Origin: Treponema sp.
GTDB lineage: Bacteria; Spirochaetota; Spirochaetia; Treponematales; Breznakiellaceae
Direction of reading: 5' to 3'
Assembly (NCBI GenBank): GCA_031279815.1
Contig: JAITHW010000079.1
Span: 1-33,985, forward strand
DNA length: 33,985 nucleotides
Positions 3,077 to 20,561 of the stretch are shown in pieces. The stretch's first letter is position 1, and the number at the start of each line of letters is the position of its first letter. The notes under the pieces are model-generated. The model was not told the DNA's origin and did no database searches. It worked only from the letters and a program-made list of their open reading frames with translations. Made by a program: the position numbers and the translations under genes.

Positions 3077-3155
3077 AGAAATAAGGGCAAACCCCCTTAC
3101 GTTGCAGGTTATGACAGCCCGTATAGTTGTTCCCTTTAAGAATAACTAAATGCGG

Positions 3156-3240
3156 TCCACGGATTACATGGATTAACACGGATTTCAGTTCTCCAGAACC
3201 GGTATAATCCATGAAAATCCGTACAATCCGTGGATTTTTT
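3156..3240 (+). terminator. Terminator formed by an inverted pair of ATCCGTG-type repeats
   Basis: A 30-base left arm (3156-3185) and right arm (3205-3234) are complementary at about 25 of 30 positions around a 19-base loop, followed at once by six T (3235-3240). It ends the chemotaxis-receptor transcript. Each arm consists of tandem ATCCGTG/ATCCATG-like units about ten bases apart, and a third, unpaired copy occurs at 13793-13822, so this is also a dispersed repeat. Confidence 0.8.
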
Positions 3241-3305
3241 CAAGAATCCGCCTGTTACATGGCAGGAAGCTGAAATTGAGCTTCGCCCTTTTTAAGTGGA
3301 TTGAC

Positions 3306-3341: not shown

Positions 3342-3370
3342 TTGCGGGCTTCTACCCTGTGCATTATAGT
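3342..3370 (+). promoter_or_regulatory. Candidate promoter of the dehydrogenase/malic enzyme/glycerol cluster
   Basis: TTGCGG (3342-3347), a 17-base spacer and TATAGT (3365-3370, five of six matches). The predicted transcript starts near 3377 and has a leader of about 145 bases before the first gene. Confidence 0.5.
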
Positions 3371-3455
3371 AATAATATTAAGAAACCGTTCCTGAATATT
3401 AAATATAGATCGATTTACTGTTTTCAGTGTTTAATCCTGGTTGCTGAAGAGATTT

Positions 3456-3501
3456 AAGAGCGCAGCAAAATAACCGGACGGTTGTTTTGTTGCGCTCTTT
3501 T
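3456..3501 (+). promoter_or_regulatory. Strong leader hairpin with T-rich tail, possible attenuator
   Basis: AAGAGCGCA (3456-3464) pairs with TGCGCTCTT (3491-3499), and the stem continues inward through CAAAA/TTTTG to AACCG/CGGTT, about 20 bp in all. The tail TTATTTTATT follows and the Shine-Dalgarno of the next gene begins only at 3511. The structure lies inside the predicted leader of that gene. It could be an attenuator, or a terminator that isolates the gene from upstream transcription. I could not match it to a riboswitch class. Confidence 0.6.
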
Positions 3502-3521
3502 ATTTTATTAAGGAGATTTGT

Positions 3522-4631
3522 ATGGCTCAAAATGTGGTGTATGAAAGTTTTGACAAAATGGAAGCTTTTATGAGAGACGTGTTCATAAAAGCGGGGGTAC
3601 CCGCTGAAGATGCGGCTGTTTGCGCCGAAATCCTGATAGAGTCCGACAAGCGGGGCATTGATTCCCACGGGGTAGGCCGGTTCAAACCGGTTTACCTTGA
3701 TCGAATCAAAGACGGCATTCAGCATCCGGTAACGAATTTCGAGGTGGTTAAAGATACGGCGGCCATCGCCGTGGCGGACGGCCATGACGGCATGGGCCAT
3801 GTGATAGGCAAAAAATCCATGCAGATGGCTATTGATAAGGCAAAGCAATACGGCATGGGTATGGTGGCGGTGCGGAATTCCACTCATTACGGCATTGCCG
3901 GGTACTATGCGACTATGGCGACTAAAGCGGGAATGATAGGCATCACCGGGACCAATGCCCGGCCTTCCATTGCCCCCACCTTTGGGGTGGAAAATATGCT
4001 GGGTACCAATCCTCTGACCGTGGGTATCCCCTCGGATGAGGATTTTCCCTTTGTACTCGACTGCGCCACTTCCGTTTCCCAGCGTGGAAAGATCGAGCAC
4101 TACGAGCGTATAGGCAAGACCATGCCTCCCGGCTGGGTTATTGACCGGCAGGGCAACAGCGAAACCGATCCTTCCGTTGCGCTGACGGGCCTGACCGAGG
4201 GTACGTCCGCCTTAGCTCCCCTGGGCGGTCTGGGAGATGATACCGCGGGGTATAAAGGCTACGGCTATGCCACGGTGGTTGAGATCCTGTCCGCCGCCTT
4301 ACAGCAGGGGGCGTTCCTTAAAGCCCTGAACGGCTTAGACGGCCAGGGCAAGAAAATGCCCTATCATCTGGGACATTTTTTCATTGCCATTGATATAAAC
4401 GCCTTTGTGGAACCGGATAAGTTTAAGAAGGCCGCCGGCGATATTCTGCGGGAACTGCGGGCGTCGAAAAAAATGCCCGGCCATGACCGGATATATACCG
4501 CCGGAGAAAAAGAGTACCTGGCATGGCTTGATCGGAAGGATAAAGGGGTCCCCTTAAACGAAAGCCTTAAAAAGACCATTAAGGAGCTTCAAAAAGAATA
4601 TAATCTGGATACATATTCTTTTAATTTTTGA
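3522..4631 (+). CDS. Ldh2-family NAD(P)-dependent 2-hydroxyacid dehydrogenase (malate/L-lactate type)
   Basis: This 369-residue protein belongs to the Ldh2 family (malate, L-lactate, ureidoglycolate, sulfolactate dehydrogenases and 2,3-diketogulonate reductase), which has its own fold and no Rossmann domain. Family signatures are DSHGVGR (47-53, with His49 and Arg53) and NSTHYGIAGYY with His122. Later motifs are GTNP and DCATS; GYKGYGYA follows near residue 242. AGGAG at 3511-3515 supports the ATG. It is the first gene after the structured leader and is followed by a malic enzyme. Malate is therefore the most natural substrate: it could interconvert oxaloacetate and malate, with the next enzyme making pyruvate. 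Substrate is inferred from the neighbour only; lactate or another 2-oxoacid remains possible. Confidence 0.9.
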   Translation: MAQNVVYESFDKMEAFMRDVFIKAGVPAEDAAVCAEILIESDKRGIDSHGVGRFKPVYLDRIKDGIQHPVTNFEVVKDTAAIAVADGHDGMGHVIGKKSMQMAIDKAKQYGMGMVAVRNSTHYGIAGYYATMATKAGMIGITGTNARPSIAPTFGVENMLGTNPLTVGIPSDEDFPFVLDCATSVSQRGKIEHYERIGKTMPPGWVIDRQGNSETDPSVALTGLTEGTSALAPLGGLGDDTAGYKGYGYATVVEILSAALQQGAFLKALNGLDGQGKKMPYHLGHFFIAIDINAFVEPDKFKKAAGDILRELRASKKMPGHDRIYTAGEKEYLAWLDRKDKGVPLNESLKKTIKELQKEYNLDTYSFNF

Positions 4632-4686: not shown

Positions 4687-4705
4687 GCCATAGAAGGAGA
4701 TGATT

Positions 4706-7733
<3,028 letters not shown>

Positions 7734-7801: not shown

Positions 7802-7867
7802 TGCGGTTTATCAACATCTCTTTATAAAACCAGGATACATCGAAAAAGTATCCGAAGGAGAAAGGTT

Positions 7868-8587
7868 ATGGATATGGCATACCTGGGTGAATTCATTGGA
7901 ACCGCTTTTTTGATTTTATTAGGCGACGGCGTGGTTGCTAATGTAATTCTGAAAGGCACGAAAGGTAATAATTCAGGATGGATTGTTATTACCGTCGGGT
8001 GGGCGACGGCTGTACTGGTTCCGGCGCTTATGTTTGGAGCAATGTCGGGGGCTCATTTTAACCCCGCGCTTACCATTGCGCTTGCGGCAGCGGGGAAGTT
8101 TGAGGGGGCGAAAGTAATCGGCTACATCATCGCTCAGTTCCTCGGGGCTATGTTCGGCGCTTTCCTTGTCTGGCTTATGTACAAAGACCATTTCGACGCA
8201 ACAGAAGATCCGGGTACTCAGCTCGGGGTGTTCTGCACGGGGCCTGCGATACGGAATACCGGTATTAATCTTATCTGCGAAATTATCGGAACTTTTGTGC
8301 TGCTCTTTACCCTTACCAGCGGCGTAGCCCAGGCGTCCGACGGCGGATTGGGCGCGATTGGTACCTGGCGTGCCTGGGCGGTTATTCTTGCCATCGGTAT
8401 TTCTCTCGGGGGAACGACCGGCTACGCGATTAATCCTGCCCGTGACTTGGGTCCCCGTATCATGCACGCGATTCTTCCGATGAAGGGGAAAGGCGGCTCT
8501 GATTGGGGCTACTCGTGGATTCCTGTGGCAGGTCCGGTAATCGGCGCTATTGCGGGCGCTCTAGCCAGCGTGGCGGTTTTCGGTTAA
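7868..8587 (+). CDS. glpF: Glycerol uptake facilitator (aquaglyceroporin)
   Basis: A 239-residue MIP-family channel for facilitated diffusion of glycerol across the inner membrane. The two pore half-helix motifs are present: SGAHFNPALT and YAINPARDLGPR. The Asp directly after NPAR marks the glycerol-conducting branch rather than water-only aquaporins. About six membrane segments are visible. AAGGAG (7855-7860) lies seven bases before ATG 7868. The open frame extends upstream to a TTG at 7781, but that segment (charged, Cys-containing) is not family sequence and overlaps the leader hairpin, so it was rejected. Located directly after glpK, as expected for a glycerol uptake operon. Confidence 0.94.
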   Translation: MDMAYLGEFIGTAFLILLGDGVVANVILKGTKGNNSGWIVITVGWATAVLVPALMFGAMSGAHFNPALTIALAAAGKFEGAKVIGYIIAQFLGAMFGAFLVWLMYKDHFDATEDPGTQLGVFCTGPAIRNTGINLICEIIGTFVLLFTLTSGVAQASDGGLGAIGTWRAWAVILAIGISLGGTTGYAINPARDLGPRIMHAILPMKGKGGSDWGYSWIPVAGPVIGAIAGALASVAVFG

Positions 8588-9204: not shown

Positions 9205-9254
9205 CTCCGGCTGTTTCGGCAGTTTTGCTGCCGAAACAGCCGGAGGATCTTTTT
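9205..9254 (+). terminator. Strong intrinsic terminator after the rubrerythrin gene
   Basis: An uninterrupted 18-bp stem (9205-9222 with 9228-9245) with a five-base loop is followed by GATCTTTTTGTTT. It should separate the ldh2-malic-glpKF-rbr unit from the dha-PTS unit. No clear promoter lies in the 21 bases between it and dhaK, so readthrough or an unseen promoter must feed dhaK. Confidence 0.85.
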
Positions 9255-20435: not shown

Positions 20436-20516
20436 GGGGAGATTCCCGAGCGGTCAAAGGGGGCAGACTGTAAATCTGTTGCTGCGGCTTCGTAGGTTCG
20501 AATCCTTCTCTCCCCA
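20436..20516 (+). tRNA. tRNA-Tyr (anticodon GTA)
   Basis: An 81-base class II tRNA with a long variable arm. The acceptor stem is GGGGAGA/TCTCCCC, the discriminator A, and the anticodon loop CTGTAAA gives GTA. CCA is not encoded. A terminator starts at the next base. Confidence 0.95.
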
Positions 20517-20552
20517 AAAGGGCTGTCCCTTGTAAAGGGGCAGCCCTTTTTT
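20517..20552 (+). terminator. Intrinsic terminator of the tRNA operon
   Basis: AAGGGCTG (20518-20525) pairs with CAGCCCTT (20541-20548), with an inner CCCTT/AAGGG extension, followed by six T ending at 20552. The ribosome site of the next gene (GGAG, 20553-20556) begins immediately after the T tract. Confidence 0.85.
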
Positions 20553-20561
20553 GGAGTTACC

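Follow-up and report, generated by a model that had tools for sequence, protein, structure and literature searches.

The window, that is, the whole stretch of 33,985 nucleotides that was analysed, carries a dehydrogenase gene of the Ldh_2 family that is preceded by a structured leader and followed, on the same strand, by a malic-enzyme-like gene, by the glycerol kinase gene glpK and by the gene of a MIP-family channel (Table 1). The last two connect the gene cluster to glycerol and glycerol-3-phosphate (G3P). The NCBIfam models nearest to the dehydrogenase product all score below their cut-off.

Table 1. Features of the leader and of the gene cluster that follows it, in positions of the window
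Feature	Position	Strand	Basis or remark
Candidate promoter, TTGCGG (3342-3347), 17 nt, TATAGT (3365-3370)	3342-3370	+	8/12 to the sigma-70 consensus
Antiterminator 5' arm, TTGCTG	3441-3446	+	Complementary to 3463-3468; conserved arm pairing
Antiterminator loop with two AGAG repeats (3448-3451, 3457-3460)	3448-3460	+	Proposed GlpP recognition site; near-invariant columns
Antiterminator 3' arm, CAGCAA	3463-3468	+	Also inside the terminator 5' arm
Intrinsic terminator	3456-3508	+	Stem 3456-3475/3480-3499, loop GGAC, T-rich tail from 3500; fold, inverted-repeat scan and covariation
Shine-Dalgarno sequence, AAGGAG	3510-3515	+	Sequence; 10 bases after the stem
Ldh_2-family malate/L-lactate dehydrogenase gene (regulated gene)	3522-4631	+	PF02615, E 5e-128
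Malic-enzyme-like gene	4700-6160	+	Likely co-transcribed; orthologue bears its own element in three relatives
Glycerol kinase gene glpK	6240-7733	+	TIGR01311, above cut-off
MIP-family channel gene, probable glycerol facilitator	7862-8587	+	TIGR00861, 163.9 bits, just under the cut-off of 171.25

The most prominent part of the leader is the inverted repeat AAGAGCGCAGCAAAATAACC-GGAC-GGTTGTTTTGTTGCGCTCTT, which forms 20 pairs, two of them G-U, and runs into the T-rich tail TTATTTTATT. This hairpin, its tail, the Shine-Dalgarno sequence and the ATG at 3522 lie where the first-pass annotation had put them. The whole window holds only three inverted repeats of at least 14 nt with arms at most 60 nt apart, this one included, and the leader (3370-3530) reaches a minimum free energy of -49.4 kcal/mol, as compared to -29.6 +/- 3.8 kcal/mol in 200 shuffles (z = -5.2). 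The stem is also maintained across the spirochaetes, in which seven pairs have changed on both sides, a level of covariation attained by 3 of 500 shuffles. Two neighbouring pairs (columns 32 and 33 of alignment A3) are C-G and G-C in the window through matched changes relative to most relatives. The short stems that had been pointed out further upstream do exist as sequence, but one of them, ACTG-TTTT-CAGT, is absent from the minimum-energy fold, and none of them showed any sign of conservation.

The first-pass annotation had found no obvious antiterminator, but there is one: the TTGCTG that lies just ahead of the terminator can pair with a CAGCAA located inside the terminator 5' arm. Since the latter segment belongs to both hairpins, antiterminator and terminator are mutually exclusive. 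The pairing of the arms is retained in 92.1% of the cells over 20 spirochaete elements, with limited covariation (one pair changed on both sides), and the columns of the AGAG repeats are invariant or nearly so in the same 20 elements. The attenuation layout that had been suggested for this leader is thus supported by two exclusive structures, both of which are retained in relatives. The computed energies are very unequal, about -5 kcal/mol for the antiterminator and about -31 for the terminator; termination would therefore be the default unless something holds the antiterminator, and a protein would be needed for the on state. In folds of successive prefixes, a minimum-energy calculation that does not represent kinetics, the antiterminator is predicted only for RNA ends at 3480 and 3485 among those tried, and it then gives way to the terminator.

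Transcription of this leader would start near 3377, from the candidate promoter that had already been proposed. This promoter is only a partial match to the consensus and went unreported by a promoter scan, but a similar pair (TTGCNN-N16-18-TANNNT, a pattern picked post hoc after inspection of the sequences) lies upstream of 14 of the 18 related elements described below, against a mean of 0.7 and a maximum of 4 in shuffles. At L158, the first match of this pattern differs from the promoter-like pair found there separately.

To follow the element through the spirochaete family, dehydrogenase orthologues were gathered by protein search from 145 family genomes and a wider contig set (best 80 of 461 loci). 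The element lies directly before the dehydrogenase in 10 of the 26 leaders inspected, all of orthologues at 77% identity or more; homologues under that level were excluded, as were two partial genes (G019, whose start falls outside its contig, and G083). In G027, it precedes the malic enzyme gene, itself upstream of the dehydrogenase. A covariance model, R1, was built solely from nine of these ten dehydrogenase leaders, and L022 was kept out of the models on account of a misaligned 3' arm. When R1 was run over 195 family genomes, 15 matched at E <=0.01, of which 12 are strong (best E <1e-9) and three (G052, G101 and G112) pass the first threshold and not the second. The covariance search with homologous leaders that had been proposed as a check does recover a conserved element. 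A second model, R2, run over 390 genomes of the order, finds the element in 10 of them, all in the same family. The window's own genome holds a single copy, the second R1 match there being the same hairpin on the opposite strand.

In this family, we count 18 elements, including three (L022, L043 and L049) that were obtained by routes other than R1. They precede the Ldh_2 dehydrogenase in ten cases, malic enzyme in three (G027 by Pfam; G187 and G189 by their common N-terminal sequence), an FAD oxidoreductase in three, glpK in one and a transporter/glycerophosphodiesterase operon in one. The oxidoreductase, found in G037, G056 and G086, is GlpA-like, with DAO and BFD domains, and resembles glycerol-3-phosphate dehydrogenase, while the operon, in G037, associates an ABC transporter with a glycerophosphodiester phosphodiesterase (GDPD). 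In G086 (L162), a C-terminal remnant resembling the dehydrogenase is found between the element and glpK, and it seems that a deletion has handed the dehydrogenase leader on to glpK. Three variant elements, included in alignment A4 and outside the count of 18, are found in G051 and G081, which belong to one genus (L164 4666-4737 on the minus strand and 5555-5624 on the plus strand; L165 1949-2021 on the plus strand). Their arms TGCTC/GGGCA replace TTGCTG/CAGCAA around the loop AAGAGAATAAGAG, and their settings are the vicinity of a glpP fragment, in G051, and the upstream side of an S33-type hydrolase gene.

The gene that recurs upstream of these elements encodes a regulator of family PF04309 (G3P_antiterm; 202 bits for a cut-off of 27), which is GlpP, an antiterminator that responds to G3P, and structures of its relatives have been solved (3kts, 1vkf). 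At 10 of the 18 loci, glpP is directly upstream on the same strand (L042, L043, L044, L046, L049, L022, L156, L158, L160 and L161), L022 showing the end of glpP alone, at a contig edge, and L158 having it about 690 nt off. It is elsewhere in the genome for four others (L080, L051, L159 and L162) and was not found in the assembly for the remaining four (the window, L021, L157 and L163). PF04309 exceeds its cut-off in 13 of the 195 family genomes; these include 8 of the 12 that bear a strong element (hypergeometric P 1.3e-8, relatedness being not fully removed). At the level of genera, 7 are shared between 10 with the element and 11 with GlpP among 56 (P 1.4e-4, with relatedness again not fully removed). 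In four genomes (G025, G029, G061 and G141), glpP is present, whole or as a fragment, and the model finds no match. In G029, glpP adjoins a dehydrogenase whose leader is devoid of the motif. In G141 (L040 2754-3010), a truncated glpP is joined directly to a terminator-like CACTCTTTTTTT tail before the dehydrogenase and nothing else remains of the element; one deletion apparently took out the regulator and the switch together.

The same motif is found in Bacilli. A PF04309 search of 151 genomes, from the class of an Alkalibacterium, gave 104 positives, and 30 glpP loci, those among the matches listed, were sampled. A strict rule was derived from the spirochaete element, but after the Bacilli leaders had been viewed: a pair of RGAG repeats with a spacing of 7-12 nt, enclosed by arms that form at least 4 bp, and a 3' arm that re-pairs with a T-tailed stem. 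A match within 300 nt after glpP is found at 15 of the 30 loci, while 100 dinucleotide shuffles average 0.37 matching loci and never exceed 3. Upstream of glpP, 1 of 30 matches, and the reverse strand gives 0 of 30; over both strands of the 34-kb window, the rule returns a single match, the leader itself, at 3448. The gene that follows is of MIP (9), DAO (4), MFS (1) or MgtC (1) type in the 15 matching leaders, hence 14 of 15 for the first three types. In the 15 non-matching ones, it is MIP in three, MFS in one and GDPD in one, the rest being unrelated or unassigned, and the three MIP leaders and the MFS leader are, by eye, near variants of the site. In the analysis of the Bacilli leaders, the arms pair with their own partner over at least 4 bp in 14 of 19, against a mean of 6.3 and a maximum of 10 when permuted. 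The spirochaete arms are longer (6-7 bp) than those of the GlpP leaders of Bacilli, and their repeats are mostly AAGAG, not GGAG. Leaders from Acetobacterium and Clostridia, which have no clear repeat pair by eye, were excluded from the counts.

Among RNA-binding antiterminators, GlpP belongs to the less well understood ones; its binding to the glpD leader RNA was reportedly described by Glatz et al. in 1998. In the RAT antiterminators of the BglG/SacY/LicT type, an RNA hairpin whose sequence extends into the terminator 5' arm is held in place by a protein; a comparable arrangement would apply here, with a different protein family and a different RNA site. The closest comparison is Bacillus subtilis, in which glpD, glpFK and glpTQ are controlled by GlpP through a 5' UTR made of a promoter, a GlpP site and an intrinsic terminator, as outlined in a passage of PMC9604022. 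The leader of the window would have the same composition, with a candidate promoter, a putative GlpP site and presumably G3P as effector, and its loop motif recurs in the Bacilli leaders downstream of glpP. What differs is the phylum, and the fact that the spirochaete glpP adjoins the dehydrogenase or the malic enzyme gene in addition to glp genes.

Judging from the sequence, the leader is very probably a GlpP-type conditional transcription terminator that is off by default. RNA polymerase leaving the candidate promoter would first produce the weak hairpin, whose loop would display the two AGAG repeats. If inducer is lacking, this hairpin would give way to the 20-bp terminator and transcription would stop near 3505. 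GlpP loaded with G3P would hold the antiterminator and have the terminator opened, allowing read-through into the dehydrogenase gene. The effector is likely the RNA-binding protein GlpP with G3P, not a riboswitch, and, among glycerol, malate and lactate, glycerol is the condition predicted to matter.

The weak point of the GlpP reading is the regulator in the window's own lineage, for which neither PF04309 nor tblastn with the GlpP of a relative finds a glpP in the assembly (79.94% complete). Three other genomes with strong elements (G073, G187 and G189) likewise give no PF04309 match above the cut-off. These four among the 12 strong R1 genomes would be accounted for by an RNA-binding protein other than GlpP that works the same switch in this lineage. 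We consider this unlikely: the loop and the arms of the window match those of genomes that do bear glpP, its 9-nt repeat spacing is also that of L160 and L161, both with a neighbouring glpP, and the metagenome-assembled genomes are incomplete. The bacterium of the window may have GlpP; incompleteness alone would account for all four absences only if glpP lay in an assembly gap in every one of them. The missing regulator could also mean that the leader has decayed and is no longer regulated, or that it is a constitutive terminator with partial read-through, which is hard to reconcile with both structures being intact in the window and with the matched changes at two terminator pairs, and which we regard as very improbable.

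Two exclusive hairpins in a conserved leader, upstream of glycerol and malate genes, are also what is seen in the riboswitch-type attenuators of Rfam, in which case the leader itself would sense a metabolite. There is scarcely any likelihood of this: Rfam returned nothing above the gathering score and only sub-gathering matches at a relaxed threshold; moreover, the conserved part amounts to a loop of about 13-15 nt, devoid of any larger aptamer fold, and it is genetically linked to a dedicated RNA-binding protein. As the hairpin lies so close to the ribosome site and another abundant repeat is present nearby in the genome, one can think of translation control by sequestration of that site, of a mobile-repeat copy or of a chance hairpin. 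The chances of these are negligible in our estimation, since the Shine-Dalgarno sequence is outside the stem, the start codon of L046 is much further 3' of the terminator, and the repeat-element reading was rejected because the leader is single-copy in its own genome. A leader peptide, considered by eye, was rejected too: the window has one extra base between the repeats as compared to most relatives, and L049 also differs, so the frame is not kept.

If the GlpP reading is right, its control would reach beyond the glycerol genes, to the malate/lactate dehydrogenase and the malic enzyme of spirochaetes whose host habitat is probably the termite gut, and G3P would gate the pyruvate/malate branch in these bacteria. 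A target motif that spans two phyla, in which fixed RGAG repeats are separated from free arms, also makes the RNA recognition of GlpP directly testable. One could go further and see in the RGAG pair, held in a hairpin loop by free arms, a portable code open to adoption by any terminator; in lineages where glpP is not seen, such as that of the window, another factor would read it or it would sense G3P directly. We give this idea a low chance. To a system known from Bacillus subtilis, this would add a spirochaete regulon and an RNA motif shared across phyla, both apparently new: GlpP together with Treponema led to a synteny-method paper, no title retrieved on GlpP binding, target or regulon concerned spirochaetes, and no earlier description of the RGAG pair in print was established in the literature searched, which leaves out most subscription papers.

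Some other repeats of the window can be mentioned. A perfect 18-bp hairpin with a 5-nt loop lies at 9205-9245, after a rubrerythrin-like gene and before a dihydroxyacetone-kinase-like gene, and a long, terminator-like inverted repeat lies at 20510-20556, directly 3' of a tRNA gene. Finally, a 96-nt intergenic stretch at 3150-3245, which contains the inverted repeats CCACGGATT...AATCCGTGG, is matched 43 times in its own genome, itself included, mostly at 90-98% identity; it represents an abundant family of small repeats, perhaps MITE- or REP-like.
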